DNA of 64,000 nt, from positions 1-64,000 of the forward strand of contig WGLU01000001.1 in NCBI GenBank assembly GCA_016125375.1. Reading direction: 5' to 3'. The DNA is from Pseudomonadota bacterium (GTDB lineage: Bacteria; Pseudomonadota; Alphaproteobacteria; UBA1280; RI-95). A model generated the notes under the pieces. That model saw only the letters and a list, made by a program, of their open reading frames with translations. It was not told where the DNA came from and did not search any database. This document shows positions 14,634 to 61,971 of this stretch, piece after piece (within the stretch, counting starts at the first letter, position 1; each line of letters begins with the position of its first letter). The position numbers were made by a program, and so were the translations under genes.

Positions 14634-14643
14634 CATGTAGATA

Positions 14644-14677
14644 AGCGCTTGCAGGCGGCCAGCCGAACGCCTATATG
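14644..14677 (+). promoter_or_regulatory. Promoter of the 14811 unit
   Basis: TTGCAG (14649-14654), a 17-base spacer and TATATG (14672-14677), just downstream of the rplQ terminator. The -35 box sits in an 11-mer, AGCGCTTGCAG, that recurs exactly in the promoter of the minus-strand unit at 23329-23362. A leader of about 130 bases, pyrimidine-rich near its end, separates it from the start codon. Confidence 0.65.
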
Positions 14678-14810
14678 GTTAGAAGCTTTGTAAAAGCTCG
14701 TATGCTTATCTTGACCGTTTTGCATCTCATCCTGCGACTCTCCGTCGCACAAAGCGGCTTAAGTCTGCGTGCGTCCCTTCCACACTTCTTTCTCTGTACA
14801 GGAGGACATC

Positions 14811-16010
14811 ATGTCCAACAACTTCCGCAACACCTCCCTCGCGGCTCAGCTCAAGGCGGCTGGTGCCGTGGCCAAGGTCATGTCGGCTGCCGCCGACGAA
14901 GTGACCGAAGCCAAGAACATCGCCGGTCAGGCTCTGGTGGCTGCGGCTTCCTTCGCCGAAGCCGTCAACATCGAGGTCCCCGCGCCGCGGTTCGACGGGC
15001 TCTACCAGCCCGACACCGCCAAGCGCGAAATCGCGGGTAAGGCCCTCAACGCCTACATCCGCAACTACCTGGGCCGGGTGAAGAACACGGTGCTCAAGCG
15101 TGAGCTCAACGCGTTCGACATCCTCTCGGTGGACCTCATCGACAAGGTGCTGAACACCCTGGCGCGTCTGCACGAAGGCATCGCCAAGGCCGAAGCGGCC
15201 AGCAAGCGCAACCAGCTCTCCATCTACACCAAGGTCGTTCGCGGCCGCGGCGGTGTGGACGAGCTGCTCGGCAAGCTGGCGATGAGCGGCGACATGGAGG
15301 ACATCCTCCGTGCCCATGCCCGCTCGGCGCTCGACCGCTCCCGCGGTCGTCTGAAGGCCAAGGCGGACGAGGCGAATGCCACGTTCATCAAGGCCGACAG
15401 CGATCTGGCGGCGCTGGCCGAGAAGGCCGACAGCGCGTCGCTGGCCAAGATGGGCGAGGCGGAAGCCACGTTCAACAAGGCCAAGAAGCAGGTCGAAGTG
15501 GTGGCTGCGGCCATCAAGCTGCTGGAGGACGCCGAGAACACCGATCTGGTGGACAAGGCGACCCGTGTGGTCCACGCCATCTACAAGATGGATGTGTTCG
15601 CCCATCACGCCAAGCAGCGCGCCAAGCGCATCGCCGAGGCCAAGTCGAAGCCCGTCAAGGCCGAGACCGAGCCCAAGGCCGAGAAGGCCGGCAAGCGCCG
15701 TAAGCGCCGTCGTGGCGGCAAGAAGGGCAAGGGCGGCAACGCTCCGGCCCCGCAGGCGACCGAAACGGCTCCGGCCGTCGAGGAAGCCGCTGCCGAGCCG
15801 GTGATCGTGACCGGTAGCTGCGGCAACGACTGCAGCACCTGCCCGGTCGCGGCAACCTGCGAGTCCGTCATCGAGGCCCCCGCGGCCGACGTGCCGGAAG
15901 CGTTCGCCAACCGGGCCGACGACTACCGCGCCTACGTGGCCGAGAAGGGCAAGGCCCCGGCGAATGCCGGTGTGCTGACCCGCTGGGTCAACGCCCGCAA
16001 CAAGGCCTAA
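14811..16010 (+). CDS. Uncharacterised coiled-coil protein with basic tract and four-cysteine cluster
   Basis: A 399-residue protein I do not recognise. Residues 1-280 are almost entirely helical and alanine/lysine-rich. Residues 293-309 form a strongly basic tract (KAGKRRKRRRGGKKGKGG) suggesting nucleic-acid binding. A proline/alanine linker is followed by cysteines at 337, 341, 344 and 350 (C-x3-C-x2-C-x5-C), which could bind zinc or an Fe-S cluster. The end (WVNARNKA) is aromatic/basic. AGGAGGA at 14800-14806 decides the start at 14811 over an upstream in-frame start at 14769. Codon third positions are nearly all G or C and CTC, GTC and AAG are common, unlike the ribosomal genes beside it. 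It has its own promoter and terminator. Confidence 0.85.
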   Translation: MSNNFRNTSLAAQLKAAGAVAKVMSAAADEVTEAKNIAGQALVAAASFAEAVNIEVPAPRFDGLYQPDTAKREIAGKALNAYIRNYLGRVKNTVLKRELNAFDILSVDLIDKVLNTLARLHEGIAKAEAASKRNQLSIYTKVVRGRGGVDELLGKLAMSGDMEDILRAHARSALDRSRGRLKAKADEANATFIKADSDLAALAEKADSASLAKMGEAEATFNKAKKQVEVVAAAIKLLEDAENTDLVDKATRVVHAIYKMDVFAHHAKQRAKRIAEAKSKPVKAETEPKAEKAGKRRKRRRGGKKGKGGNAPAPQATETAPAVEEAAAEPVIVTGSCGNDCSTCPVAATCESVIEAPAADVPEAFANRADDYRAYVAEKGKAPANAGVLTRWVNARNKA

Positions 16011-16028
16011 CGGCAACAAGCGAAACGG

Positions 16029-16060
16029 AAAGGCTCCCCTCGGGGAGCCTTTCTTTTTTT
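16029..16060 (+). terminator. Intrinsic terminator of the 14811 unit
   Basis: Stem AAAGGCTCCC (16029-16038) with GGGAGCCTTT (16043-16052), loop CTCG, then a long T run to 16060. It is preceded by GCGAAACGGAA, a near copy (other orientation) of the leader motif found in related units. Confidence 0.93.
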
Positions 16061-16070
16061 GTGGGTCGGG

Positions 16071-16790
16071 TTAGCGGGTGCGGGTAACGATATAACCAAC
16101 CGAAGGGGTTGCTCCGGCAACAACATCCAGTACGGTTTCGTCATTATCCTTAAAGCCCACAACCTTGAGGCTGGAACCGGGGAGGTTCTCGACCTCGAAG
16201 GTCATGCCTTCCTTAAGGCCCTGGGCTCGGCTGCCGGCAATAACAACCTGCGTGCCTTCCTGACTCAGGACCGTGCTGCGCCAAGCCTGCGAGGCCAGAC
16301 GTTTGCCCAGTTCTGTAACCAGCTGGCTCACCGCATCGCCCAGAGCGGCCGGTGAGGCGCTGCCCGCATCGCGCAGGGCAGGGAACATGGCCTGCTGGTT
16401 ATCGCCAACGCCCACAACATCCCCGCTGGTAACGGGTTTGCCTTGCATGTCCAGCAGGGTGTAGCCCATCCGGTAGTAGGCGGGGCGTTTTTCGGCTTTG
16501 AGAACGCCGACAATACGCGGTTTGCTGCCCAGCGATTCTGCCCGTTCGGCAGGCAGACCATCATTAATCACAAGATTATAGGCGCTGAACTCGTCCTCGG
16601 ACACGGGGGACAGTGTCCCGGATGTGGCCATGGCCTGTTCGACCTGCGCCCGCAGGTCGCTGTTCGCGGTAACGATTTTAATCATGTGCTTGGGCTGGTT
16701 GCCGCCGCTGCCGCCGAACGGGCTGGTGGATGTGGTTGCACACCCGGCCAGAACAGCTGCAAAAGCGAAAACGGAAAGTCGGCGCAACAT
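16071..16790 (-). CDS. Predicted lipoprotein, function unknown
   Basis: A 239-residue protein with a lipoprotein signal peptide: MLRRLSVFAFAAVLAGC, the cysteine at 17 being the lipidation site, followed by a serine/glycine-rich linker. The mature part looks like a periplasmic domain with a beta-rich C-terminal module (EGMTFEVENLPGSSLKVVGF). No enzymatic motif is visible. It lies 18 bases downstream of the parvulin gene in the same direction, so the two probably form an operon and may serve envelope biogenesis. Confidence 0.85.
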   Translation of the reverse strand: MLRRLSVFAFAAVLAGCATTSTSPFGGSGGNQPKHMIKIVTANSDLRAQVEQAMATSGTLSPVSEDEFSAYNLVINDGLPAERAESLGSKPRIVGVLKAEKRPAYYRMGYTLLDMQGKPVTSGDVVGVGDNQQAMFPALRDAGSASPAALGDAVSQLVTELGKRLASQAWRSTVLSQEGTQVVIAGSRAQGLKEGMTFEVENLPGSSLKVVGFKDNDETVLDVVAGATPSVGYIVTRTR

Positions 16791-16808
16791 ACCGGTATCC
16801 CCTCAGGT

Positions 16809-17600: not shown

Positions 17601-17687
17601 CGACGTTATCCTTCAATGGTTCTTGGTCGGTTTAGAAAGCTTTCACAGCTTGCCGCGAGCGGGCATTTTTTTCAAGTTAAAAGCCCG

Positions 17688-17716
17688 TTGGATTGACCCG
17701 CTGAAAGGGGTATGAT
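17688..17716 (+). promoter_or_regulatory. Promoter upstream of the M23 peptidase and secA
   Basis: TTGGAT (17688-17693), a 17-base spacer and TATGAT (17711-17716), about 80 bases before the GTG at 17797. It lies in the 196-base divergent gap after the isomerase gene. Confidence 0.6.
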
Positions 17717-18828: not shown

Positions 18829-18850
18829 CCAACCGATTGGATTTTTACCG

Positions 18851-22012: not shown

Positions 22013-22360
22013 ATGTCAGCCTTCGACGACGAGATGAAAGCCATCCGTGACGCGAACGTTGCGGACAAGAAAACCCAGGCCAATGCGGCCATCGACCAGA
22101 TCTGCAAGACCTACCAGAGCGACCTGAAAGCCGCCCTTGCGGCCCGCAAAGGCAACGTGACCGATGCCGAGGTCCGCTATCAGGTGGTCGGTGCCGTGGT
22201 CGGCAGCACGCTGAGCTACACGCCGGAGCATCTGGAAGCCTACGGGCGGCTGAAAGCCGATGCCACGGCCACCAGCCAGAACATCACGGTCAGCTGGGAC
22301 CAGGGCAACGACAAGGACGGCGTGTTCTGCCTGAACATCATCGTCCGCTATCGCGGATAA
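22013..22360 (+). CDS. Uncharacterised small protein (dispersed high-GC unit)
   Basis: A 115-residue protein of unknown function. The first 60 residues are predicted helical and charged, and the second half contains SWDQGNDKDGVFCLNIIVRY, suggesting a small alpha/beta fold. No signal peptide is seen. AAGGTG lies nine bases before the ATG, and the leader is pyrimidine-rich (CTTCTTTGCTTTTT). Third positions are almost all G or C, in contrast with mutT just upstream. A strong terminator follows ten bases after the stop. Confidence 0.82.
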   Translation: MSAFDDEMKAIRDANVADKKTQANAAIDQICKTYQSDLKAALAARKGNVTDAEVRYQVVGAVVGSTLSYTPEHLEAYGRLKADATATSQNITVSWDQGNDKDGVFCLNIIVRYRG

Positions 22361-22401: not shown

Positions 22402-22791
22402 TTATTCGGGCTGTGCTTTCTGCGGAGCGACCACCAGCTTGGCGGGCAGCTCGGCGAAGAACATCATGGCCCAGACTTCGGGTACCAGTGATTCCTGGAA
22501 GCCGTGCACCCAGAACCCGAGCGCGGCCTGCTGGCCGTATTGCGGGTTGAGGGGGAACTTCTCCCAGTTGCGTTCGTACTCCAGCTTGACGGTGCCTTCC
22601 CAGACGACCGTCTTGCCGTCGAAACCGTAGACGGTCAGGTGGTCACCGTCCTTGAGGCAGTGGAGGCCGTCGTAGGTGCGCTTGCCGTCGGGCGTTTGCA
22701 GGCTGGTGTCGTAGAACGACCAGATGACGCCCTCGGTGCCGGTTTCCCAGAAGGCTTCCAGCACGCCGCTCAGGATGATTTTATCGCTCAT
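22402..22791 (-). CDS. Uncharacterised protein (dispersed high-GC unit)
   Basis: A 129-residue protein rich in aromatic residues (AFWETGTEGVIWSFYD, then WVHGF and EVWAMMFF), probably beta-rich and soluble, with no recognised family. AAGGGAG just upstream supports the start at 22791. It is 11 bases downstream of the thermonuclease gene and shares its promoter. GC-rich third positions place both in the same compositional class. Confidence 0.82.
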   Translation of the reverse strand: MSDKIILSGVLEAFWETGTEGVIWSFYDTSLQTPDGKRTYDGLHCLKDGDHLTVYGFDGKTVVWEGTVKLEYERNWEKFPLNPQYGQQAALGFWVHGFQESLVPEVWAMMFFAELPAKLVVAPQKAQPE

Positions 22792-22802: not shown

Positions 22803-23264
22803 TTACTGCTGACCCGTGCACCAGGGCTCGCGCTTGCCGCCGTCGTAGGGGCGGGCAAGTCCGGCAGCGATGAGCAGGTCGGCCAGCGATTGACCGTCGG
22901 TGGTATAGGCGTCGGCGAGGACGCGGCCGGCGTACTTGTCATGCCGGATGTTTTTCAGCACCACATGGGTGCCGGCATTGGCGATGGTCAGGGCCTTGGC
23001 CTCTTGGGCCTTGTCCTTCTCGAACTGGCACTTGCCCCGGATTTCCGGCGCGTCCAGTCCCATCAGGCGCACGCTGACGTGCATCACCACGCCCGGCCAC
23101 GGATAGGCCAGCACGGTGAAGGTATCGCCGTCGTAGACGCTGACCACATCGGCCTGTACCGGACCGCTGATGACGGTCGGCATGTGGATGGGGTCATCGG
23201 CACGGGCAGTGCCAACGCCGAGAACGGAAAAAATCAACAACAGAGCCACGAGAGTACGTTTCAT
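22803..23264 (-). CDS. Secreted thermonuclease-family nuclease (SNase-like)
   Basis: A 153-residue protein with a signal peptide (about 1-23, cleavage after TARA). The SNase fold is shown by VVSVYDGDTFTV, RLMGLDAPEIRG and the HDKYAGRVLADAY segment, which match the calcium-ligand, catalytic arginine and second-arginine regions of staphylococcal nuclease. It should cleave DNA or RNA outside the cytoplasm. Six cysteine-free core strands end in a short W-C tail. It is the first gene of a two-gene unit with its own promoter and the TTCCCGTTTTGC leader element. Confidence 0.88.
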   Translation of the reverse strand: MKRTLVALLLIFSVLGVGTARADDPIHMPTVISGPVQADVVSVYDGDTFTVLAYPWPGVVMHVSVRLMGLDAPEIRGKCQFEKDKAQEAKALTIANAGTHVVLKNIRHDKYAGRVLADAYTTDGQSLADLLIAAGLARPYDGGKREPWCTGQQ

Positions 23265-23291
23265 GTTTGAAACCTCGGGGGGTGATATAAA

Positions 23292-23303
23292 GCAAAACGG
23301 GAA
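23292..23303 (-). promoter_or_regulatory. Leader element, variant TTCCCGTTTTGC
   Basis: Read on the minus strand this 12-mer differs by one base from TTCCCGTTTCGC, which is found exactly in the leaders at 47422-47433 and 61456-61467. It lies 28 bases before the thermonuclease start codon, inside a pyrimidine-rich leader. Function unknown. Confidence 0.5.
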
Positions 23304-23328
23304 GGGAAGTGAGGAAACTTAAGGCCGA

Positions 23329-27946: not shown

Positions 27947-28642
27947 TCAGGCCATTGCCGCGGCTTTGGCCTGCACATCACGCTGAATAGCGTCGAGCAG
28001 GGTCAGACTGAGGGAAATGGCATGGTCGGCCTTATCCAGCGCGGTATACGGGCTGCCGAGCAGCAACGTGATATCGCACAGGACAGCGTCGATGGCGGGT
28101 GCGTTGTCGATGGCGCTTTCCACACCCAGCGCGAGGCGGATGTGCTCGACCGGGAGCATGGCAAAAGCCATCTCCAGTGCCTTGTCCAGCGGTGTGCCTT
28201 CCTTCAGGTCGCGGATGTTGCGCGCGGCCGGTAGGACGGTATCCTGCAGAAAAGACAGGCGGTATTCCGCCTCGGTCCGGGCGCAGTCAAGAGCCGCATC
28301 CCAGTCATTCGGGTTGAGCTGAATCTCGGTGCCGAGGCGCGCGCGAATGCCCGCGAACAGGTTGGCAACGTCGTTCAGGGCCTTGGCCGTGGCATCGGGG
28401 TCGGTGGCACCACCGGTCAGCCCCGCAATCGCGGGAATGCCGGCCAGCAGCGGACGCACCTGCGTGCGCACACGGTCGATGTCGTGGGCAAGAAGGGCCA
28501 GCAAGCGGCCTTCGGGCTTGTTGTTGTGGGCGGCAGCGCACAGGGCGATCGTCCTGCGGATTTTGCCCAGTGCCAGCAGCCGCAGCTGATGACGGGAAAG
28601 GTCATTGCGCACCTTATCGTGGTACGTCTCGATGTCGAACAT
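27947..28642 (-). CDS. Uncharacterised helical protein (dispersed high-GC unit)
   Basis: A 231-residue protein without a recognised family. It appears wholly helical, with conserved-looking segments RNDLSRHQLRLLALGKIRR and ARTEAEYRLSFLQDTVLPAAR. No signal peptide or membrane segment. The frame is open 34 codons upstream, but GGAG nine bases before the ATG at 28642, and the change of composition there, favour this start. Codon usage is GC-rich at third positions, unlike cysS and the nitroreductase on its sides. Confidence 0.8.
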   Translation of the reverse strand: MFDIETYHDKVRNDLSRHQLRLLALGKIRRTIALCAAAHNNKPEGRLLALLAHDIDRVRTQVRPLLAGIPAIAGLTGGATDPDATAKALNDVANLFAGIRARLGTEIQLNPNDWDAALDCARTEAEYRLSFLQDTVLPAARNIRDLKEGTPLDKALEMAFAMLPVEHIRLALGVESAIDNAPAIDAVLCDITLLLGSPYTALDKADHAISLSLTLLDAIQRDVQAKAAAMA

Positions 28643-28705
28643 GTTCGGGTACTCCGGCCAGTGCCGAAAAGAAGATAAAAGGTGAGGTACTGCAAAAGGT
28701 TCAGA

Positions 28706-29380: not shown

Positions 29381-29398
29381 AGGCCGCCTAGGCGGCCT
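29381..29398 (+). terminator. Palindrome after the nitroreductase gene
   Basis: An 18-base perfect palindrome (AGGCCGCCT and its complement) without a clean T run; CTTT and CCCTTTT follow. A weak terminator or a leader structure of the next unit. Confidence 0.4.
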
Positions 29399-29457
29399 GT
29401 ACCTTTCTCCCTTTTCCCTTTCTTTATTTCTTTTCCTCCGCTTTGTGCGAGGCTGAC

Positions 29458-30246
29458 ATGATCGACCGTCTTACCGGCGTCTTTCAGGCGCTGCTCAAGT
29501 TCAGCTGGTATATCTTCCGGCTGTGGCTTTTCATCTTTGTCCTCTCCGTGGGATTGAGCCTTCTGGGCCACACGCCCATGCAGGCTACCAAACCCGCCTA
29601 CACGGGTCAGGTCTGCACGCAGGCCCCACAGGTGACGACCACGCGCGTGTTCTCCCTGATGGGAGCGCAGGGCACGGGCTTTGGCGTTGCTGGCAACATC
29701 ATCACCAACAACCATGTGGTTGGCTGGTCGCCGGTGGTGTTGCTCATCGACGAGAACTGGCATGTGGACTTCGGCTGGGTGCGCGCCACCGCGCGTGACG
29801 ACTCCGACACCGCTGCCCATACCGACCTTGCCGTCGTGCGCCCGCTGCTGGGCACGCTGACGGTCAACGACCTGCCGATGGCGCGTACCAGCACGGCAGG
29901 AACGGTGTACACCCGCGGGTTCCCCAAGGGGAGCCTGAACGACACCTTTGGCACCATGTGGCCGACGGTGAGTGAAAACGTGCTCGACACCGACCGCGTG
30001 GTCACCAACGGTGCCTCCGGCTCGCCGGTTGTCAACTGCAAGGGCGAGGTTGTCGGCGTGATCGCGACCCAGCTCAAGCTGCCGCTGTTCATGACGCCGG
30101 ATGGCAGTCTGCACAGCCCGCGCTTCATGGACCTGCACAACCTGTCCGGCATGGGCTGGGTGACCGGCCGTGGCGGCATCTGGTTCGACAACGGGGCCAT
30201 CCCCGTCGAGCGCCTGCAGGAGCTGCTGGCCAGCCTGAGCGACTGA
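29458..30246 (+). CDS. Membrane-anchored trypsin-like serine protease (dispersed high-GC unit)
   Basis: A 262-residue protein. One membrane segment (about 17-37) is followed by a chymotrypsin-fold domain. The catalytic triad is visible as H86 in TNNHVVGW, D123 in AAHTDLAVV and S188 in TNGASGSPVV. There is no PDZ domain, unlike DegP/DegS. The most likely topology places the protease domain in the periplasm. Three cysteines, at 53 and in VVNCKG among others, are present. GAGG five bases before the ATG at 29458 supports that start over one at 29443. Composition, leader and private terminator put it in the dispersed class. Confidence 0.88.
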   Translation: MIDRLTGVFQALLKFSWYIFRLWLFIFVLSVGLSLLGHTPMQATKPAYTGQVCTQAPQVTTTRVFSLMGAQGTGFGVAGNIITNNHVVGWSPVVLLIDENWHVDFGWVRATARDDSDTAAHTDLAVVRPLLGTLTVNDLPMARTSTAGTVYTRGFPKGSLNDTFGTMWPTVSENVLDTDRVVTNGASGSPVVNCKGEVVGVIATQLKLPLFMTPDGSLHSPRFMDLHNLSGMGWVTGRGGIWFDNGAIPVERLQELLASLSD

Positions 30247-30257
30247 CCGAACGAGAG

Positions 30258-30289
30258 AAAACGCCCCGCATTTGCGGGGCGTTTTTTTT
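30258..30289 (+). terminator. Terminator of the 29458 unit
   Basis: AAAACGCCCCGC (30258-30269) pairs with GCGGGGCGTTTT (30274-30285), loop ATTT, with eight T residues. It may also help the convergent gene ending at 30301. Confidence 0.94.
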
Positions 30290-30300
30290 ATGCCTTAATC

Positions 30301-31308
30301 TTAGAAGGTTTTTTGCCAGCCGAGTGTGACAGCGTAATCCTTCTCCAACTGCGTGCCTTGCAGATTGCGGTACATGGGCACCGTGACCTCCAGTGACAGG
30401 CGGTGCCCTTTGGCAGTGGCAGGCATGAGGAAGTTAACCCCAAAACCTGCATCCACCATTGTACCACCTGAATTGATGGTGTTGGCTGCAGGCATCATCA
30501 TTGGCGTCAGAGCGCTGTCGCGTCCGTTAATTTGCCCTGTGTAGGTCCCGAGCAGACGGCCGGAAAGGCTGACGTTCTCGGTCACCGGGCGGGCGAGCCA
30601 TCCGGTTGCGCTATAGATATTGCCGAGGCGGTAACCATTGTCATTGTCGCCGGTGCGCAGGGTGGTGGCCCCTTGAGCACCCCATGACCAGTCAGCCGTG
30701 TGGCCGCTGTAGGTCAGGCTGGCAATGGCGTCATAGGTACCAGAGCCCAGTTGCATGGGGTAGGCGAGGCGGGCACCTGTTGTCCCGGTTTTATCAATAT
30801 CGCCGGTGGGCAGGCTCAGGCCCAGCTGACCTTGCAGGCGCGCGTTGTCGCCTTCCCACAGCTCCATCAGGGCGCTGGCTTTAATATCGCCAAGCCCGTC
30901 GGCCGTCTGCTTGGCGCGTGTGCCGTTGCGGTGAAGGGTTTCCATCTTCTTATCCAGATAGGGCACCATGGCCATAACGGTCACTTTGTCGGTCAGGCCG
31001 TACATGCCGCCGAACATGTGCATATTCGTATGCATGTCCAGGGGTGTCATCATGTAGGAGCCCAGTACCTGTTGAGGTGTCTGGGTATGTGTGCCGGCAC
31101 GCAGGCCGTCCATTTCCATCCGCATATAACGGTAGGAGAGCATAAAATCACCCTTGCCGTGCATGTGGTCGGCCATCACGCCAATCGGGGCATGGCCGTC
31201 CGGCCGAGCAAGGAAAGTGTTGTAACTCTCTGAATGTATATCGTCAGCAAAAGCCGGGGTTGCTGCGCCGAGCATAAGCGCTACGGCACCAGTAAGTACA
31301 TGTTTCAT
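30301..31308 (-). CDS. Outer-membrane beta-barrel, MetA-phenol-degradation/transporter-like
   Basis: A 335-residue protein with a signal peptide (cleavage after ATPAFA) and alternating strands typical of a 10-14-strand barrel. LGDIKASALMELW and LGLSLPTGDIDKTG resemble the DUF/PF13557 'MetA pathway of phenol degradation' porin family, and the protein ends in phenylalanine (GWQKTF), the usual outer-membrane insertion signal. The first third is rich in methionine and histidine (MADHMHGKGDF, MRMEMDG, MHTNMHMFGGM), a pattern seen in copper-related proteins. Metal binding is only an inference. It follows the small 96-residue gene in one operon. Confidence 0.8.
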   Translation of the reverse strand: MKHVLTGAVALMLGAATPAFADDIHSESYNTFLARPDGHAPIGVMADHMHGKGDFMLSYRYMRMEMDGLRAGTHTQTPQQVLGSYMMTPLDMHTNMHMFGGMYGLTDKVTVMAMVPYLDKKMETLHRNGTRAKQTADGLGDIKASALMELWEGDNARLQGQLGLSLPTGDIDKTGTTGARLAYPMQLGSGTYDAIASLTYSGHTADWSWGAQGATTLRTGDNDNGYRLGNIYSATGWLARPVTENVSLSGRLLGTYTGQINGRDSALTPMMMPAANTINSGGTMVDAGFGVNFLMPATAKGHRLSLEVTVPMYRNLQGTQLEKDYAVTLGWQKTF

Positions 31309-43382: not shown

Positions 43383-44024
43383 ATGTTTACAATTGTCCTG
43401 TCTTTTATAGCTTTTTTTCCTGATGTAGCTCTGGCCCAGAGCAAATTTTTCAGCACACCAACAAGAGGCGGTAATGATGCCAGGGAGCAGGCAGTCCTGC
43501 AAAGTATGTTGTCTGAGAGTCAACGTGCGAATACCTGTACGTCCAGGGGGCTGATCTACGCCCCTACGCACGCATCTGCAGATGCTGATGGTTGTACAGC
43601 TTCTGCAGATGGGCGTGTCTATGCCGGGAATGTAAGTGTTGGCGCCGATATTTCTGCGAGTGGGACCGTGCAGATAGGGGGGGCATCGGTTGTCTGCAAT
43701 GCCTCACGGGAAGGGGCCATCAGGTATAACAGCGGTACTCACAAAATGGAGTTCTGTGATAGTACCAGCTGGAAAAGTATGGGATTTAACATTAGCGCAT
43801 GTACCATCCGTTCGAACGTAACAACTACAGCGGCAGTGGATGGCCGCGATGTGGCAAATGTCTTCTGCCAGAATGGAGAAACCGTGATGGGAGGCGGGTG
43901 TTCGCATGGGTCACCCTTCAATCTACGGGTGAGCTATCCGGGAAACAACGGCTGGCATTGCCAGTGGCTGAGCGCAAATAACGATATAAAGACCGCTTAT
44001 GCCACATGTTGCCCTGTGAATTAG
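43383..44024 (+). CDS. Secreted cysteine-rich protein, adhesin or pilus-tip-like
   Basis: A 213-residue protein with a signal peptide (about 1-18, ending ALAQ). The middle contains REGAIRYNSGTHKMEFCDS followed by TSWKSMG, a motif I associate with repeated surface and minor-pilin C-terminal segments, and the second half carries many cysteines (CTIRSN, VFCQNGE, GGGCSHG, WHCQW, CCPVN) likely in disulfides. Function is not certain. GGATGA-type sequence AGGATAAAACG lies before the start. Next to a short tyrosine recombinase, it could be a variable surface protein. Confidence 0.7.
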   Translation: MFTIVLSFIAFFPDVALAQSKFFSTPTRGGNDAREQAVLQSMLSESQRANTCTSRGLIYAPTHASADADGCTASADGRVYAGNVSVGADISASGTVQIGGASVVCNASREGAIRYNSGTHKMEFCDSTSWKSMGFNISACTIRSNVTTTAAVDGRDVANVFCQNGETVMGGGCSHGSPFNLRVSYPGNNGWHCQWLSANNDIKTAYATCCPVN

Positions 44025-44031
44025 GCGCAAC

Positions 44032-44061
44032 AAAAAAACACGGCCCCCGAAGGGGCCGTGT
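44032..44061 (-). terminator. Terminator of the helicase unit
   Basis: ACACGGCCCC (44038-44047) pairs with GGGGCCGTGT (44052-44061), loop CGAA. Seven A residues on the left become a T run for minus-strand transcription ending the gene at 44067. It also lies after the convergent plus-strand gene. Confidence 0.9.
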
Positions 44062-44066
44062 AGTCG

Positions 44067-46097
44067 TTAGTGCATCTGCTGCGGGTGACGTCCGCTGCCC
44101 TTGGACTTGCGTCCGTTACGGGGGCGGTGCGCTACCTTGGGCTTTTTGCGCGCGCCGGTTTTGGGCGGCGTGTGCTGCGGCTTGGCCCGCTTGCTCTTGT
44201 CGGGCGAGCGGTGCCGGCGCCCAGGCTTGGGCAGCAGGTCCTTGGCACCATCCTCGGGGAGGATTTGCTCCAGCGTGCGCAGGCTGACCACGGTCAGGTT
44301 CTGCAGCAGCGCCAGATCTTCGCCACCGGAGGTTTCCAGATTGAAGGGTTCACCCACAACCAGGTCGCCAGCGGCGGAAACAAAGGATGCCTTGGAGATC
44401 AGTCGCGTCTCACCAGCTGCGTTGGTGGCATGGCGGCCGTTGGCCATCCACACCCCCCACGGCCAGAGGCCGGCAGCGATGCTCGCGATCATGTCTTTTT
44501 GCTTGGACAGGGGCTTCTGCTCGGAGAACGGGATTTTCTGCTCCGTCTCGCAAAGCTTGAAGTACACATCCATCGCCCGGTGGAAACGCCGTGGAACCAC
44601 GTCGTTGTCCGCCAGATGTGCGTCGATCGCATCTCCCACAAGGTTCTTGAGGGTGATGTCACGGCACAGCTCGAGGAAGATGTCCTTCTGGGCCAGCAGG
44701 TCGCTGTCGTGATGGCGGGATTTGCCGCCGTACTCGCTGAGGCTGCGCATATCCAGGATACCGCCGACCGACGCGCAGGCCAGAGCGGCCAGCAGATCGG
44801 TGACAACATCGCGGTTCTTGGCCTCGACCATCATGCGCGCGTACTCGGGGTCCAGCGGGTAGGCCAGCATCTTCTCACCGGTATTGGTGAGCTTCTTGCC
44901 GCCCTTCATCAGTGCGCCGAGTTGCTGCAGACGCTCCCGCCCGAGGGCGAGGTGCCGCTTGCGCGGCGCGTCCATGAAGAGCATCTTCTCGGGCGTAATG
45001 CCCGTGGAAAGAAGCCGCAGCAGCACACCATCCAGACGGTTGGTGTGAATCTCGGGCGCCGGATGCGCCTCACGCCGGTCGAACAGGCCACCGCACAGGA
45101 AATACGTACCGGGCTTGGTTCGCCCCGCACGTCCCATACGCTGGATGCAGTCCGCCTTGGAGGTATCCGCCAGCATCAGGCCAGGCACGCCTTGCTTGTC
45201 CAGCGTCGGCACACGCTCGAGGCCCGAATCCACCACCGAATCGATATCCGGAATGGTGATGGAGGTCTGCGCCACATTGGTCGCTACGACCACCTTGGGG
45301 CGGCTGTAGGAGGCAAACGCGAGGTCTTTCTCTTCCTTGGAGAGGTCGGCGTACAGGGGCAGAACCTCGGCATCCACGCCGCTCTGGGACAGAGCTTCGC
45401 AGACAGCCTCGATTTCCCGCACACCGGGGAGGAAGACCAGAACGTTGTGACCTTTCTTCAGCTGCTTGATGGTGGTAGGCACCAGGTCGCTGGCCGTGCG
45501 CTGCTCGAACTGGACCGGGAAGGTCCGTCCAGCAATATGCACATGCGGCACAGTACCGAAATGCGGTGCCAGAAACGCCTTCAGACGCTCCACTTCGGCG
45601 GTTGCGGACATGATGACGAGCCGGAACTTTTCCCCCTTGCGGAGGCGTTCCAGCGCCAGTGCCAGCAGCGCGTCGATGTTGATGGAGCGCTCGTGATGCT
45701 CGTCGATGATGAGCACGCACGAGGAGTTGTCGGCAATACCGTGTCCGCCGGCCTCGCGGGCGAGCTGAAGGCCGTCGGTCCGGAAGACCACGCGGGTATC
45801 CGGTCCGATTACACGGTAGAGGCTGCTGTGGTAGCCCACGCTTTGGCCGACCTTTTCGCCCCGCATGCGGGCCACGTACTCGGCTACCGAAGTGGCAGCG
45901 GTGATACGCGGCTGGGTGATGACGACCTCGGTGAAGAAAGCGTCATCGAGCAGCAGGTTTGCAAGGCCGGTGGTCTTGCCGCTGCCCGTCTCGCCGGTGA
46001 CGATGGTGATGCTGTTGGCCTTGATGGCCGCGAGAATCTCGTCACGATGGGCAAAGACAGGGAGCGCAGCAAGTGCGTTTTTGGTTGATTTGGACAT
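44067..46097 (-). CDS. DEAH/RHA-family helicase (HrpA-like; dispersed high-GC unit)
   Basis: A 676-residue superfamily 2 helicase. Walker A GETGSGKTTG lies at 35-44, motif II is DEHHERS at 132-138 (histidine where DEAH has alanine), motif III is MSATAE, and motif VI is CIQRMGRAGRTKPG. The order fits HrpA/HrpB enzymes, which unwind RNA. It is much shorter than HrpA (1300) and HrpB (about 810), and ends in a strongly basic tail (from about 620; KKPKVAHRPRNGRKSKGSGR) likely to bind RNA. AAGG precedes the ATG. It has its own promoter, a long pyrimidine-rich leader and terminator. Confidence 0.92.
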   Translation of the reverse strand: MSKSTKNALAALPVFAHRDEILAAIKANSITIVTGETGSGKTTGLANLLLDDAFFTEVVITQPRITAATSVAEYVARMRGEKVGQSVGYHSSLYRVIGPDTRVVFRTDGLQLAREAGGHGIADNSSCVLIIDEHHERSINIDALLALALERLRKGEKFRLVIMSATAEVERLKAFLAPHFGTVPHVHIAGRTFPVQFEQRTASDLVPTTIKQLKKGHNVLVFLPGVREIEAVCEALSQSGVDAEVLPLYADLSKEEKDLAFASYSRPKVVVATNVAQTSITIPDIDSVVDSGLERVPTLDKQGVPGLMLADTSKADCIQRMGRAGRTKPGTYFLCGGLFDRREAHPAPEIHTNRLDGVLLRLLSTGITPEKMLFMDAPRKRHLALGRERLQQLGALMKGGKKLTNTGEKMLAYPLDPEYARMMVEAKNRDVVTDLLAALACASVGGILDMRSLSEYGGKSRHHDSDLLAQKDIFLELCRDITLKNLVGDAIDAHLADNDVVPRRFHRAMDVYFKLCETEQKIPFSEQKPLSKQKDMIASIAAGLWPWGVWMANGRHATNAAGETRLISKASFVSAAGDLVVGEPFNLETSGGEDLALLQNLTVVSLRTLEQILPEDGAKDLLPKPGRRHRSPDKSKRAKPQHTPPKTGARKKPKVAHRPRNGRKSKGSGRHPQQMH

Positions 46098-46258
46098 AGG
46101 ACCACCTTGGGTGAACAGTGGAAGAAGAGAAGAAGAACGAAACCGAACGGATCGTTACGTATCAGGTGTCCGCAGCAATGTGCACGCGGGGTTAAGGGAA
46201 AGAAAAGAGAGCGCAAAGGCAAAAGCGCATGTTTCGTCTTGGAATGAAGACAGCACTA

Positions 46259-46344: not shown

Positions 46345-47379
46345 TTATAGGCTGTCGGGCGTGCCTTTGAGCGCTGCATCGCCTGCACGTTCGCCAGTGG
46401 CAAACAGCTGTCGGATGAGCGCGTGGGACACGCGGCGCTTCTGCGGCGGGGTGAACCCGCTGCGGCCAAGACCGCCGATATCGAACGCTGTGACGCGCGG
46501 CTTGTTCCGGCCGTCGTTCAGCGCTGCGATGGCAGCCATGTCGCGCTTGAGGGGTTTGTTGAACACCTCGGCCTGATCGTAGTAGGCCTGCTCGGCGCGG
46601 TAGCGCGGAGGGTTGAAGTTGTCGGAGTTCAGGCGGATGAGCACCACCGTGTCCACACCGTCGTTGATGGGAGCCATCAGCGGCGGATTGTGGGCGTAGC
46701 CGCCTTCGATGTAAGGCACCCCGTCGATGACGAGGGGGGCAAACATATCCGGCAGGGCACCACTGGCGGCAACCACCTTGTCGGTGATTTCCTTGGTGGT
46801 GAAGACGCGGCCCTTATGCGGGGCTGCAGCTTCGCACGCGGCGATGTACAGCTTGAAGCGCTTGTTCTTGCGAATGCGCTCAAAGTCCACCTTGTCCACC
46901 AGCATGCGCAGGGTGTTGTCCGCCTCGGAGATGAGGGGCACATGCACCGGCACGCCGTAGGCTTGCATGGTATCCAGCCACAGGTCGAGCGCCTTCTGCA
47001 TCAGGTCGAGCAGGGTCTCGGTCGGCAGGGCCATGCGGGTGGTGAACATCCACAGGTCCGGAAAGTACTTGTTGATGTACTCCAGCGCCATTTTGGGAAT
47101 GCGGTCCTGCCACAGAGTGGTCAGGGCGTCAATCGCCCGCTGGCGCTGTTCGGCTTCGGTCCCGCCTGCAAGCAGGGCGTCGGCCAGAATGACGGCGTTC
47201 AGGGCACCGGCACTGGTGCCGGAGATGACCGTCGGGAGAGGGAAAGAGGGATCGGCAAGCAGCTTGCACAGCACACCCGCCTGGAAGGCGCCGAACGTAC
47301 CACCCCCTTGCAGGGCCAGCATGTAGGGCCCCTTTCGGGTGCGGAGTGACTGCCAAACCGCCTTGTGATGGGAGGTCAT
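46345..47379 (-). CDS. Patatin-like phospholipase (dispersed high-GC unit)
   Basis: A 344-residue patatin. The oxyanion loop is LALQGGGTFGAFQAGVL (about 21-37), and the nucleophile is S56 in GTSAG. The partner acid normally found in a DGG/DGA motif appears as E225 in YIEGGYAHNPP, a change that may alter or lower activity. Patatins cleave membrane lipids or other acyl esters; some act in anti-phage systems or as toxins. No signal peptide. The frame is open upstream, but the start at 47379 fits the GC-rich composition and an AAGGA site upstream. Confidence 0.9.
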   Translation of the reverse strand: MTSHHKAVWQSLRTRKGPYMLALQGGGTFGAFQAGVLCKLLADPSFPLPTVISGTSAGALNAVILADALLAGGTEAEQRQRAIDALTTLWQDRIPKMALEYINKYFPDLWMFTTRMALPTETLLDLMQKALDLWLDTMQAYGVPVHVPLISEADNTLRMLVDKVDFERIRKNKRFKLYIAACEAAAPHKGRVFTTKEITDKVVAASGALPDMFAPLVIDGVPYIEGGYAHNPPLMAPINDGVDTVVLIRLNSDNFNPPRYRAEQAYYDQAEVFNKPLKRDMAAIAALNDGRNKPRVTAFDIGGLGRSGFTPPQKRRVSHALIRQLFATGERAGDAALKGTPDSL

Positions 47380-47421
47380 GGCTTTGGTCCTTGTGTGAGA
47401 AAGAAATGCCCCTTGGGGCTT

Positions 47422-47433
47422 GCGAAACGGGAA
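47422..47433 (-). promoter_or_regulatory. Leader element TTCCCGTTTCGC (patatin unit)
   Basis: Read on the minus strand, identical over 12 bases to the element in the leader at 61456-61467 and one base different from that at 23292-23303. It lies 43 bases before the patatin start, next to a CCCCAAGGGG hairpin. Confidence 0.55.
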
Positions 47434-47485
47434 GAGGTTGAGGCTTTGACCTGTGTTGGAAGCAGGTCGAAAGTACATAACAGAG

Positions 47486-56367: not shown

Positions 56368-56442
56368 CCAGTCATAAAACTCATCTTTACGATACTTCCT
56401 CTCGTTTTTCCCGATTCACACAGGTTGAAGGACTGGCCTGTC

Positions 56443-56775
56443 ATGCTTAACAAACTCTACGAAACTCTTATCGCCACCACGTTCGGTGGTTTCGTCATCG
56501 GCTGGATCGTCGACGCGCTGGCGCATTCGCTGGTGGTCAAGATCCTCGGTGCCGTCGGACTGGCCGGCGTGAGCGCCGGTGCGGTGGGTGCCGTTGTCGG
56601 TCTCATCGTCGGTGGCATCCTGTTCGCGGCGACCCGCGGCAAAATCGCCAACGATGACGATGATGGCAACGAGAAGAAAAACGACGCCGAAGACGAGGCG
56701 CCGGTCACCAAGTCGGACAAGGACGACAGCAAGCCGACCAACAGCGGTAAGCTGGGTGGTAGCACCCGCAAGTAA
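56443..56775 (+). CDS. Small two-helix membrane protein (dispersed high-GC unit)
   Basis: A 110-residue protein of unknown function. Two hydrophobic segments (about 12-28 and 37-63, the second rich in glycine, alanine and valine) are followed by a highly charged, probably disordered tail starting at NDDDDGNEKKND and ending GKLGGSTRK. AAGGA lies ten bases before the ATG at 56443; an upstream TTG is less likely. It has GC-rich codons and its own terminator. Confidence 0.82.
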   Translation: MLNKLYETLIATTFGGFVIGWIVDALAHSLVVKILGAVGLAGVSAGAVGAVVGLIVGGILFAATRGKIANDDDDGNEKKNDAEDEAPVTKSDKDDSKPTNSGKLGGSTRK

Positions 56776-58078: not shown

Positions 58079-58182
58079 TAGCAGGTCCAAAACACTTGGA
58101 CCCATCTCGACGTTTCTTTTCGTATGCTTTCTTCCCTTTGTGCGGCTTTGCTGCCGCATCGGCTTTCTCTTAGGAGTCTCCC

Positions 58183-58932
58183 GTGAACACAGAAGATCTT
58201 GAAGCCTTTCAGGCGCGCATCGGCTATCGCTTCCGCAAGCCGGCGCTGCTCCGTCAGGCGCTCACCCACAAAACCGCCAACCGGCGCGAAAACTACGAGT
58301 CCATGGAATACCTCGGCGACGCGTTCATGCTGGCTGCCATCCGCGAGTGGCTGACCCGCTACGTGCCCAAGGTGCCCGTCCGCCTGAAGGTGGAAGGTGC
58401 GGCCAAGAGCAACGAGATGCTCGGCCTCATCGTCCGGCGCCTCGGTATCCCCGACCTGCTCGCCATGAGCAAGGAGGAAGCCTGCGGCGACCTCTACAAG
58501 CAGTCCAAGAAATACGCCGACGCCTACGAGGCGCTCATCACCGCTATCTACCATGACGGCGGATACGAGGCGGCGCGCAACTTCGTCTGGCGCACCATGC
58601 CGTTGCAGAAACTGGCCGACGGTGACTGGGAGCGGATTCCCCGCAACCCGCGCTGGAAGGATGCCACCAAGGATCTGGTCAAGCTGCTCGAAGAGCTGGA
58701 GCTCGGCGAGCCGGTCTACACCCACGTGCACAACGTGGGCAAGTATCAGGTCTGGCAGGTGGATACCGGTGTCGGTATTGCCTGGGGCCGTGGCCAGCTG
58801 GGTCTGGAAAACGACCTCGGCGCCGAACATGCCAAGGGCAACGCGGCGTCCAAGCTGTTGCGCAAGCTGCTCATCGACCAGCTCGAGGACATCTTCGACG
58901 AACCGACCACGCCGTCCGAACCGACGGCCTGA
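58183..58932 (+). CDS. Ribonuclease III-family protein (dispersed high-GC unit)
   Basis: A 249-residue protein (GTG start) with an RNase III domain (about 5-145) and a double-stranded RNA-binding domain (about 160-232). The catalytic acids are all there: E39, E42 and D46 in YESMEYLGDAFM, D113 and E116 in ADAYEALITAIYHDGG, matching E38, E41, D45, D114 and E117 of E. coli Rnc. It should cut double-stranded RNA. It lacks the lepB-rnc-era neighbourhood and has the composition of the dispersed class, so it is more likely a second enzyme than the housekeeping copy. AGGAG precedes the GTG. Confidence 0.88.
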   Translation: MNTEDLEAFQARIGYRFRKPALLRQALTHKTANRRENYESMEYLGDAFMLAAIREWLTRYVPKVPVRLKVEGAAKSNEMLGLIVRRLGIPDLLAMSKEEACGDLYKQSKKYADAYEALITAIYHDGGYEAARNFVWRTMPLQKLADGDWERIPRNPRWKDATKDLVKLLEELELGEPVYTHVHNVGKYQVWQVDTGVGIAWGRGQLGLENDLGAEHAKGNAASKLLRKLLIDQLEDIFDEPTTPSEPTA

Positions 58933-58938
58933 AAAACG

Positions 58939-58968
58939 AAAGCCGACCCCATGTGGGGTCGGCTTTTT
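58939..58968. terminator. Terminator of the RNase III-like unit
   Basis: AAAGCCGACCCC (58939-58950) pairs with GGGGTCGGCTTT (58955-58966), loop ATGT, then T residues. It lies between this gene and the convergent leuB. Confidence 0.92.
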
Positions 58969-58981
58969 CTTTTGTGGCAGC

Positions 58982-60097: not shown

Positions 60098-60098
60098 G

Positions 60099-60707: not shown

Positions 60708-60794
60708 GGTTCTTTGTCCCTTAAAAAATAACGCCCGTAGTTTAGCACCCCAAAACAGTGCCGTCAGCCGCCAAACATGCTGCGCCGCACAAGC

Positions 60795-60820
60795 AAAAAG
60801 GCCGCCCCGAAGGGCGGCCT
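60795..60820 (-). terminator. Terminator of the 61439 unit
   Basis: AGGCCGCCC (60799-60807) pairs with GGGCGGCCT (60812-60820), loop CGAA; the A run on the left is a T run on the minus strand. Confidence 0.9.
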
Positions 60821-60830
60821 GTACGATTGG

Positions 60831-61439
60831 TCAGGCGCGGAGTGTCAGGTCGGTGACCCGCTCCATGCCGTTGTTGATGAGCTCCCGCTCATAGGTTTTT
60901 CCGCGGACAATGAGTCCGGCAGCAATCATCTGCTCGATGACCGTCACATCTTCCGCCGCCACATCCTCGTAGCGGACTTCGCCCATGCCGGCGTAGTAGA
61001 CCCATGTGTAGGGTTGCTTCTGGTAGGGGTTGCGGCTGAGGTCCTGATGGACAAGGCCACGGAAGTCGCTGCTCGCGCGCTGGCGGGACTGCCACTTCTT
61101 GAGGAAGTTCTGGAACGGGCCGTGGTTGGGCATCTCGGTACGGAGGGTATCCGCGGGCGAGATGTCCACCTTGAGGATAATGCGGTAGGCCCTCAGGCCG
61201 TCGTTCAGCAGCGTGGATGCGTCCAGACGGACGAAGATGCCGCTGCCCAGCAGGCTGAGGGCCGCTTCGGTTTCGTCCGGGCTGGCCAGACGGTCGATGC
61301 TGGTACCCATGCCGCCGTAGCCGACCCAGTGGAAGCCGATGGCCGACTCGTACAGGAACAGCTGGTAGGGGGTGGGGAAACCGAGGTTTTTGACCTTGCG
61401 GAGAATGTCCGCTTTGGTAGCGTCAAGACGGGCCGACAT
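60831..61439 (-). CDS. Uncharacterised protein (dispersed high-GC unit)
   Basis: A 202-residue protein I do not recognise. Notable segments are TPYQLFLYESAIGFHWVGYGG, a long central charged part, QPYTWVYYAGMGEVRYEDV and a C-terminal ELINNGMERVTDL. It seems soluble, with mixed helices and strands. AAGGAG before the ATG at 61439 supports this start over one 26 codons upstream. The leader has the exact TTCCCGTTTCGC element 17 bases before the start. Confidence 0.82.
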   Translation of the reverse strand: MSARLDATKADILRKVKNLGFPTPYQLFLYESAIGFHWVGYGGMGTSIDRLASPDETEAALSLLGSGIFVRLDASTLLNDGLRAYRIILKVDISPADTLRTEMPNHGPFQNFLKKWQSRQRASSDFRGLVHQDLSRNPYQKQPYTWVYYAGMGEVRYEDVAAEDVTVIEQMIAAGLIVRGKTYERELINNGMERVTDLTLRA

Positions 61440-61455
61440 GGTCAGCTCCTTATGT

Positions 61456-61467
61456 GCGAAACGGGAA
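61456..61467 (-). promoter_or_regulatory. Leader element TTCCCGTTTCGC (61439 unit)
   Basis: Identical over 12 bases (minus strand) to the element in the patatin leader at 47422-47433. It lies 17 bases before the start codon, just upstream of the ribosome binding site. A weak -10 box TATACA is at 61488-61493. Confidence 0.55.
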
Positions 61468-61520
61468 AAATGATGAAGGTGTCCACGTGTATAACATGGA
61501 CGCCGTGCTTTACGCATAAG

Positions 61521-61542
61521 AAAAACCGCCCCGAAGGGCGGT
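61521..61542 (-). terminator. Terminator of the 61892 unit
   Basis: ACCGCCC (61525-61531) pairs with GGGCGGT (61536-61542), loop CGAA; five A residues on the left give the minus-strand T run. Confidence 0.85.
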
Positions 61543-61556
61543 CCTGCGCAAAAGGG

Positions 61557-61892
61557 TTAGTAGGGGGTTGCCGGATGGGCAATGTCCGCCAAATAGCGGG
61601 CAATGTCGATCAGCGGCATGTTGATGTTCAGGTGCAGGCGAATGGCCATGACACCGGGGGTGGGCTCGCAGGACTCGTTGCTGGTGAGCAGAATATTGTG
61701 CGCCAGCATGTCTTTGACGGTTTCGCTTTCGTCGTCGTCGAGTCGGCGGAAGGGCTTGTCGGCACCGTCAGGGTTGGTGACGTGGTAGCCGAGGGTGCTC
61801 TTCCAGAGGCTGAAACGGGTTTTGCCGATGGGCGTGTGGTCTGCGTTCATCAGGTCCACGATGATGCGCTCGGCGATATGGGTATTAGGCAT
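61557..61892 (-). CDS. Uncharacterised small protein (dispersed high-GC unit)
   Basis: A 111-residue protein of unknown function. The second half is probably alpha/beta (NILLTSNESCEPTPGVMAIRLHLNINM, then IARYLADI), with one cysteine. GAGGA lies before the ATG at 61892; the frame is open further upstream but enters the osmC-side terminator. A variant leader element (TTTCCCGTTCG, 61908-61919) is present. It is the left of two adjacent units inside the leucine cluster. Confidence 0.8.
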   Translation of the reverse strand: MPNTHIAERIIVDLMNADHTPIGKTRFSLWKSTLGYHVTNPDGADKPFRRLDDDESETVKDMLAHNILLTSNESCEPTPGVMAIRLHLNINMPLIDIARYLADIAHPATPY

Positions 61893-61907
61893 AGAAATGT
61901 CCTCAGT

Positions 61908-61919
61908 CGAACGGGAAAG
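61908..61919 (-). promoter_or_regulatory. Leader element, variant CTTTCCCGTTCG
   Basis: On the minus strand, a shortened copy of the TTCCCGTTTCGC element, 16 bases before the start codon and preceded by a CTTACTTTTTT pyrimidine tract. A possible promoter, TTGACT at 61979-61984 with a poor -10, overlaps the terminator upstream. Confidence 0.4.
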
Positions 61920-61941
61920 AAAAAAGTAAGAGATGGTGCAA

Positions 61942-61971
61942 AAGAACAAAGGGGCAATCTGGTGCCCCTTT
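61942..61971 (-). terminator. Terminator after the OsmC-like gene
   Basis: AAAGGGGC (61948-61955) pairs with GCCCCTTT (61964-61971), loop of eight. On the minus strand GTTCTTTT follows, so the T run is interrupted and the terminator may be leaky. Confidence 0.65.

Follow-up and report, generated by a model that had tools for sequence, protein, structure and literature searches.

The window, that is, the whole stretch of 64,000 nucleotides analysed here, contains twelve genes (Table 1) whose neighbours are housekeeping genes. All twelve are open reading frames from the starts given in an initial annotation, which had described their third positions as almost all G or C; their third-position G/C content (GC3) was found to be 0.78-0.89, corresponding to the 89th to 98th percentile among 798 genes sampled from the same genome, and that of the ribosomal-protein genes in the same window was 0.49-0.70. 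Pyrimidine-rich (Y) leaders were likewise recovered upstream of eleven genes, with 73-97% pyrimidine in the best 30-nt stretch, a content of at least 80% being reached by just 0.3% of the 30-nt stretches across the window. The one exception, gene 3, had been recognized previously and lies 11 nt downstream of gene 4, as the second gene of a two-gene unit and without a leader of its own. The immediate terminators also proved correct, since a hairpin and a T run end nearly all transcription units of the twelve genes, with one convergent terminator common to genes 2 and 3.

Table 1. Class genes of the window with their leaders and 3' regions. maxY30, pyrimidine fraction of the best 30-nt stretch within 75 nt upstream of the start.
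Feature	Position	Strand	Description	GC3	maxY30
Gene 1	14811..16010	+	399 aa; no family; immediately following rplQ; 98th percentile of GC3	0.89
Gene 1 leader	14751..14810	+	pyrimidine-rich; Shine-Dalgarno AGGAGG		0.80
Gene 1 3' region	16011..16065	+	AAGCGA, hairpin GGCTCCCCTCGGGGAGCC, T run
Gene 2	22013..22360	+	115 aa; no known family; stop with TAACGA	0.84	0.73
Gene 3	22402..22791	-	129 aa; no known family	0.86	0.57
Gene 4	22803..23264	-	153 aa; SNase (thermonuclease) domain, PF00565, E 6.8e-8; signal peptide-like N-terminus	0.80
Gene 4-3 unit leader	23265..23324	-	contains TTCCCGTTTT		0.87
Gene 5	27947..28642	-	231 aa; no Pfam match	0.78	0.80
Gene 5 leader	28643..28702	-
Gene 6	29458..30246	+	262 aa; trypsin-like serine protease, PF13365, E 6.8e-11; N-terminal membrane segment	0.87
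Gene 6 leader	29398..29457	+	highest pyrimidine content in window		0.97
Gene 6 3' region	30247..30292	+	GAACGA, hairpin, T run
Gene 7	44067..46097	-	676 aa; HrpB-like DEAH helicase	0.79
Gene 7 leader	46098..46157	-			0.90
Gene 7 3' region	44012..44066	-	TAACGA overlapping stop, hairpin GGCCCCTTCGGGGGCC, T run
Gene 8	46345..47379	-	344 aa; patatin-like phospholipase, PF01734, E 1.6e-16	0.82
Gene 8 leader	47380..47439	-	contains CTTCCCGTTTC		0.73
Gene 9	56443..56775	+	110 aa; small membrane protein, no known family	0.78	0.80
Gene 9 leader	56383..56442	+
Gene 10	58183..58932	+	249 aa; second RNase III-like protein, PF14622, E 1.6e-14	0.85
Gene 10 leader	58123..58182	+			0.83
Gene 10 3' region	58933..58980	+	AAACGA, hairpin, T run
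Gene 11	60831..61439	-	202 aa; no known family	0.84
Gene 11 leader	61440..61499	-	contains TTCCCGTTTC		0.77
Gene 12	61557..61892	-	111 aa; no known family	0.81
Gene 12 leader	61893..61952	-			0.87

Stretches of 843 kb from the source genome and of 961 kb and 463 kb from two other genomes, approximately 29-53% of each genome, were sampled. With genes called by a simple in-house caller and class thresholds set after data inspection, 71 of 798 genes in the source genome and 50 of 875 genes in UBA6503, which belongs to a different family (GC 48%), were assigned to the class, or about one gene in 11 to 18. Class genes were organized as single genes in 91-96% of cases versus 29-40% for other genes. 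The pattern exceeded chance genome-wide: GC3 was correlated with leader pyrimidine content in both genomes (r = 0.48 and 0.49), and a two-component mixture was preferred (BIC -3211 versus -3006 and -3967 versus -3593), which agrees with the separate GC3 cluster that the earlier proposal required. No such correlation was detected in Azospirillum and Sinorhizobium, controls outside the order. The autonomous single-gene units reported for the window are thus spread along the chromosome throughout the genome and recur in further members of the order, and their co-regulation is probable. Ribosomal-protein genes fall outside the class.

The class is rich in proteases, AAA+ proteins and additional copies of housekeeping enzymes (FtsH, ClpX, RNase III, NfeD/SPFH), a theme absent from the 25 families listed for 49 control single genes. 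Gene 10, for example, is separate from the canonical rnc of the source genome (C9:309573). Queuosine-salvage proteins belong to the class in both genomes. The C-terminal part of the gene 11 product matches a class gene of UBA6503 (L064:3561-4484), and gene 1 had no match in the other five genomes of the order; single-sequence structure predictions were of low confidence (pLDDT 34 for gene 11 and 50 for gene 5). The suggested overlap with defence effectors was weak, consisting of sub-domain resemblances (protease, helicase, patatin) with nothing specific: curated defence models gave only partial domain matches for the window genes and few for the UBA6503 class, and a defence role is not supported.

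Both ends of the class transcripts carry common features. Sigma70-type promoters, noted previously upstream of several of the window genes, received moderate support, as matches to at least 9 of 12 consensus -35/-10 positions were found upstream of 32% of class genes versus 13% of shuffled upstream sequences (26% versus 18% in UBA6503). Folding predicted that the Shine-Dalgarno (SD) sequence of class genes is seldom unpaired (probability 0.16-0.20 versus 0.43-0.45 for other genes). Shuffled class leaders gave 0.18-0.19, so SD occlusion is accounted for by leader composition alone, and specific SD-sequestering hairpins were rejected. The leaders have no single strict motif, and literature searches yielded no description that matches the leader pattern. 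At the 3' side, an immediate terminator follows 83% and 74% of class genes versus 22% and 16% of the rest in the two genomes, and AACGA stands between stop and hairpin in 60% of class genes versus 4% of the rest in UBA6503. Pairing of the two untranslated regions through CGTTT and AAACG was discarded as a general rule, CGTTT being enriched in leaders of the source genome and outside the top list of genome G005. Untranslated elements are thus common to many unlinked transcripts, as in a post-transcriptional regulon.

The preference for AAG, CTC and GTC described for the window genes holds genome-wide (class versus rest: AAG 0.83 versus 0.45; CTC 0.27 versus 0.12; GTC 0.43 versus 0.22). In addition, class genes avoid T|A across codon junctions; the avoidance concerns T|A generally, and a UAG-specific effect was rejected. 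In genome G003 (GC 40%) the leaders are kept and the codon shift is absent, indicating that leader and codons are separable.

Reciprocal best hits among the three genomes included 11, 8 and 8 pairs with a leader on both sides, so that the presence of a leader on one gene strongly predicted it on the orthologue (odds ratios 27, 41 and 42, p 5e-9 to 8e-8; >300 with a strict leader rule, p 1e-10 to 6e-14), and neighbours were conserved in 8 of 11, 6 of 8 and 7 of 8 of these pairs. The HrpB-like helicase is preceded by a Y leader in four genomes (the source and three others) from three families, the scan of named genomes having found three relatives only; in 17 genomes from other families of the taxonomic class it had no GC3 shift and, save two weak exceptions, no Y leader. 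In three genomes, a divergent FtsH-like/ClpX-like pair occurs in which each gene has a Y leader. The possibility that all relatives share these genes at identical positions applied to a minority only, reciprocal best hits being found for 13-21% of class genes versus 28-43% of the rest. In two families, there is thus a genome-wide class of singly organized genes that combine a Y-rich leader with AACGA and a hairpin at the 3' end and with a separate synonymous-codon and junction signature, and its leader stays on orthologous genes across families. Because the marks are kept on the same genes in relatives, the class genes appear to be a long-established, co-regulated set and not recent acquisitions.

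As judged from sequence, these genes probably constitute a native, order-specific expression class whose monocistronic mRNAs have a post-transcriptional control in common. Each unit would have a promoter of its own, probably of the standard sigma70 type, and control would be exerted after transcription through the common leader, whose Y tract can pair with the purine-rich SD sequence. Since the SD sequence is mostly paired in the folding analysis, initiation would be low until the leader is opened by a trans-acting factor, such as an S1-, Csp- or Hfq-like RNA-binding protein or a small RNA, or by a condition. By avoiding UpA and codons that end in A or U, the class mRNAs would be stable or efficiently read in the inducing condition. 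The content of the class (extra proteases, AAA+ proteins, nucleases, lipid enzymes and many uncharacterized membrane proteins) suggests a stress or slow-growth programme.

The initial annotation had proposed acquisition or co-regulation. Phage morons and GC-atypical acquired genes stand singly between conserved operons, each with its own promoter and terminator, and have atypical codons and patchy presence; comparable units might move within the order, insert between operons and bring leader and codon usage from a mobile pool. Several observations are consistent with this: for most class genes no orthologue was detected in the remaining sampled genomes, class proteins are more divergent than other orthologues (mean identity 37-45% versus 51-65%), and the junction signature leans toward other alphaproteobacteria, UBA6503 class genes being closer to genes of the source genome than to their own genome. 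Five class runs are missing from UBA6503 between conserved neighbours that are separated there by gaps of 17-186 nt, which suggests that single-unit gain and loss does occur; other class genes are at conserved positions. Nevertheless, class composition tracks each genome (GC3 0.82, 0.64 and 0.32 in the three genomes), which argues against a common donor composition, and a common GC-rich donor was rejected. Integration at tRNA genes was also rejected, class genes being depleted there rather than enriched; no recombinase was among the families listed for class members, and the three class proteins tested had no homologue on viral contigs. Unlike morons, moreover, the class keeps leader and signature on mostly syntenic orthologues across families. 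Class genes that have a Y-leader orthologue and those that lack one were equal in GC3 (0.82/0.83 and 0.66/0.66) and had similar T|A values (0.68/0.66 and 0.78/0.71), although synonymous sites should be saturated; the fading with residence time expected of a foreign composition was thus not seen, and a donor imprint would hardly be kept at 25-54% protein identity. Foreign origin as the general cause of the codon usage was accordingly not upheld, the codon shift of the class is not explained by gene origin, and mobile units are rather doubtful as an account of the class.

It is unlikely that the codon usage is itself the primary control, acting through a changed tRNA-modification state with the leader as an accessory. 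The modification-tunable transcripts of Mycobacterium bovis BCG, associated with hypoxia and persistence, are a stress-related gene set with its own synonymous-codon bias (PMC5114619). Both those transcripts and the present class are functional gene sets with a synonymous bias that sets them apart from the other genes of their genome, and here the bias is also amino-acid specific: in the UBA6503 class, Phe, Ile, Lys, Gln, Pro, Ser, Thr and Leu shift by 0.32-0.48, whereas Glu, Gly, Asn, His and Tyr have no GC rise, so that the GC increase is not uniform. The queuosine-salvage members of the class are consistent with such control. The source genome, furthermore, strongly prefers AAG and CAG with only tRNA-Lys(UUU) and tRNA-Gln(UUG) found, although the list of 35 distinct tRNAs is one or two genes short; matching of these codons by C34 tRNAs was rejected, no CUU or CUG tRNA being among those found. 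The class differs from the BCG transcripts, however, in adding 5' and 3' untranslated features, monocistronic organization and UpA avoidance. T|A avoidance acts across codons, beyond codon choice, and the G003 class has leaders without the codon shift.

Loose RNA thermometers, in which U/C-rich tracts pair with the SD sequence and melt on heating to induce a translational heat-shock set, are very unlikely. The leaders resemble fourU thermometers in being U/C-rich and able to pair with the SD sequence, with strong predicted occlusion, and the targets include chaperones and proteases (DnaJ, ClpP/ClpX-like and HtrA-like members). The class, however, has no defined hairpin, and the equality of shuffled leaders indicates compositional occlusion without selection for a specific helix; it comprises tens of unrelated genes, many outside heat-shock families, and no Rfam thermometer family matched in the window. 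Ordinary compositional heterogeneity, by which weakly constrained single accessory genes would have long pyrimidine-rich upstream regions and GC-rich third positions by chance, is extremely improbable despite the enrichment of the class in fast-evolving, lineage-specific and membrane proteins, as single genes outside the class with just as much upstream space mostly lack both features (among monocistronic genes, leaders on 77% and 70% of GC3-high genes versus 14% and 4% of others in the two genomes), GC3-matched genes of the source genome lack the T|A signature, and intergenic GC is 0.49 and 0.40, so that GC3 would be expected to fall, not rise, in genes under relaxed constraint.

Eukaryotic 5'TOP mRNAs form a class distinguished by a pyrimidine tract in their 5' region. 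The likeness to the present class may be taken as an analogy only, since the class consists of bacterial mRNAs with an SD sequence and excludes ribosomal-protein genes. A tentative extension of shared post-transcriptional control, which we regard as possible though not likely, is a genome with two mRNA dialects, the core and a second one distinguished by a pyrimidine tract in the leader, UAACGA and a hairpin at the 3' end, and C/G-ending codons poor in UpA, which dedicated machinery would read or stabilize in a separate physiological state and which new genes would join by adopting its untranslated-region grammar.

Atypical codon usage is routinely taken as a mark of horizontal transfer, but here it marks a conserved class with matching 5' and 3' untranslated-region features, which suggests that methods inferring transfer from composition would misclassify 6-9% of genes in these genomes. 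Should the class prove to be a post-transcriptional regulon, it would offer one testable system linking the evolution of leaders, terminators and synonymous sites, and many uncharacterized proteins of an uncultured alphaproteobacterial order would gain a functional context.

The initial annotation had described twelve window genes with high GC3 and pyrimidine-rich leaders, and reading frames were found to be open at all twelve starts. GC3 was 0.78-0.89, corresponding to the 89th-98th percentile of 798 sampled genes of the alphaproteobacterial source genome (G000), and in 11 of the 12 genes the most pyrimidine-rich 30-nt stretch within 75 nt upstream contained 73-97% pyrimidines. Window-wide, only 0.3% of 30-nt stretches reach 80%. 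The exception, 22791(-), reached 57% and lies 11 nt downstream of 23264(-), in agreement with the earlier view that it is leaderless and read with that gene. Since the ribosomal-protein genes at the window start have a GC3 of 0.49-0.70, the bias differs from the one seen in genes that are usually highly expressed. One bidirectional terminator hairpin serves the convergent genes 2 and 3, and another is common to gene 6 and the convergent gene at 30301-31308.

Genes were called with our own two-model codon caller on sampled stretches, 843 kb of G000 (1.98 Mb in nine contigs, with the window at C9:1-64000) and 961 kb of UBA6503 (GC 48%), which shares the order of G000 but belongs to another family. 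Class genes were defined by a maximal 30-nt pyrimidine fraction of at least 0.766 and a GC3 cut of 0.74 (G000) or 0.56 (UBA6503); with these thresholds, which were set post hoc, the class comprised 71 of 798 genes in G000 and 50 of 875 in UBA6503, and a leuC-like window gene, 62401-63804(-), is a likely false positive. GC3 and leader pyrimidine content were correlated (r = 0.48 in G000, 0.49 in UBA6503), and in both genomes a two-component mixture clearly outperformed one component, as expected for a separate cluster. The description as single-gene units with immediate terminators held genome-wide: 91% (G000) and 96% (UBA6503) of class genes were monocistronic versus 29% and 40% of the rest, and 83% and 74% versus 22% and 16% had an intrinsic terminator within about 70 nt. 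When only monocistronic genes with 80 nt or more of upstream space were compared, the leader was present in 77%/70% of GC3-high genes versus 14%/4% of others, and therefore the link between GC3 and leader is not a by-product of single-gene status. AACGA occurred in the first 22 nt past the stop in 34% (G000) and 60% (UBA6503) of class genes, compared with 9% and 4% of the remaining genes that have a terminator. Leader motifs above composition were TTCCCGTTT in G000, where eight of nine occurrences 12-75 nt upstream of genes belonged to class genes, and TATCTTCT in UBA6503 (13 of 16 occurrences).

The codon shift in UBA6503 depended on the amino acid: codons of Phe, Ile, Lys, Gln, Pro, Thr, Ser, Leu and Val shifted strongly, and those of Glu, Gly, Asn, His and Tyr did not shift. 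Codon junctions with T before and A after the boundary (T-A) occurred at 0.63 (G000) and 0.70 (UBA6503) of expectation in the class versus 0.97 and 1.07 in the rest, with non-overlapping bootstrap intervals; values for UAG in any frame were 0.04/0.11 versus 0.18/0.37. Leaderless GC3-matched genes of G000 showed no T-A avoidance (0.96 at GC3 0.75-0.80). Twelve leaderless UBA6503 genes with GC3 above 0.60 avoided T-A (0.64), and may be class members missed by the leader cut. Intergenic GC is 0.49 in G000, 0.40 in UBA6503 and 0.32 in G003, a third genome of the order, which indicates that class GC3 in the first two is not a mutational equilibrium. G003 (GC 40%) shares its family and genus labels with UBA6503, so that the independent comparison is that of G000 with this genus. 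In G003 leaders were present and the codon shift was absent, whereas UBA6503 has the shift; the leader is therefore constant across the three genomes, and two of them have the codon dialect.

Non-class genes of all three genomes avoided T followed by C across codon junctions (0.43-0.65 of expectation) and did not avoid T-A, the opposite of the pattern in the few negative controls from outside the order (100 kb of Azospirillum and 50 kb of Sinorhizobium). CP090106.1, a 3.7-Mb Sinorhizobium record labelled pSymB in the plasmid collection, contains rnc, era, lepB, smpB and dapA; it appears to be a main chromosome under a wrong label.

Reciprocal best hits among the three genomes included 11, 8 and 8 pairs with the leader on both sides, and the leader was kept with the orthologue at odds ratios of 27-42 (above 300 under a strict rule). 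A second orthologous pair lay within 8 kb in both genomes for 8 of 11, 6 of 8 and 7 of 8 of these pairs. Gene 7, encoding an HrpB-like helicase, was preceded by the leader in four genomes from three families, at protein identities down to 32%; HrpB genes in other alphaproteobacteria showed no GC3 shift and, two weak exceptions aside, lacked the leader. Both genes of a divergent pair encoding ClpX-like and second FtsH-like proteins had leaders in all three genomes. The pair is kept in three genomes beside the canonical FtsH, and the N-terminal segment of the ClpX-like protein is rich in Cys/His.

Locations of gene pairs, gene runs and terminator hairpins
Feature	Location
ClpX-like/FtsH-like divergent pair	L144:5192-6697 (-) and L144:7169-9448 (+)
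ClpX-like/FtsH-like divergent pair	L106:2986-7184
ClpX-like/FtsH-like divergent pair	L184 (G003:C32)
Four adjacent class genes, UBA6503	L104:3807-8746
Two NfeD-SPFH-like pairs	G000:C9:153156-156860 (L126)
Hairpin of genes 2 and 3	window:22361-22401
Hairpin of gene 6 and its convergent neighbor	window:30247-30300

Class genes with and without a leader-bearing orthologue elsewhere were alike in GC3 (0.82 versus 0.83 in G000, 0.66 versus 0.66 in UBA6503) and T-A ratio (0.68 versus 0.66, and 0.78 versus 0.71). Because synonymous sites should be saturated at 25-54% protein identity, this equality means that the signature must be maintained. The proposed foreign or acquired origin was thus not supported as a general cause, since leaders stay on mostly syntenic orthologues and the signature is independent of such orthologues; as far as tested, the class genes do not appear to be foreign. 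On the other hand, orthologues were found for 13-21% of class genes versus 28-43% of other genes, and five class-gene runs were cleanly missing in UBA6503 between conserved neighbors, which indicates that the set gains and loses single units. In one UBA6503 run of four adjacent class genes, each with its own pyrimidine-rich leader, three tandem paralogues (42-50% identical) are followed by a trypsin-like protease gene.

Many class genes encode unrecognized proteins: forty-nine UBA6503 class proteins matched 37 Pfam families, versus 99 for 49 single non-class genes. Proteolysis was prominent among recognized members (M41, M48, M50, M17, S9, ClpP-like, in UBA6503 six trypsin-like proteins, with PDZ domains also present, and ClpX-like AAA+, NfeD, SPFH and DnaJ); no peptidase was among the 25 control families listed of the 99, so that this comparison is only indicative. 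Other members were nucleases, enzymes of lipid metabolism, NADAR proteins and proteins of queuosine salvage. Several are second copies of non-class proteins, named from Pfam and size: FtsH, ClpX, ClpP, RNase III, NfeD with SPFH, and an AMP-ligase/acyltransferase-like protein. Of two nearby NfeD-SPFH-like pairs in G000, only one carries the class signature. The suggested link to defence was not borne out, as defence models matched class proteins only in part.

The reading as autonomous, co-regulated units gained support, since 5' and 3' UTR features are common to unlinked single-gene units and conserved with the genes. The predicted unpaired probability of the Shine-Dalgarno sequence was 0.20/0.16 in the class versus 0.45/0.43 in others; shuffled class leaders gave equal values, so that this occlusion is an effect of composition. 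In the whole of G000, 36 tRNA matches were found and 35 distinct, single-copy tRNAs were read. Class genes prefer AAG (83%) and CAG (89%) although the only tRNA-Lys (UUU) and tRNA-Gln (UUG) found carry U34, which makes a tRNA-modification regime behind the class possible by analogy (cf. PMC5114619). Translation of the class would be kept low until a shared factor or condition releases it; in the released state, UpA avoidance together with strong terminators may favor mRNA stability or decoding.
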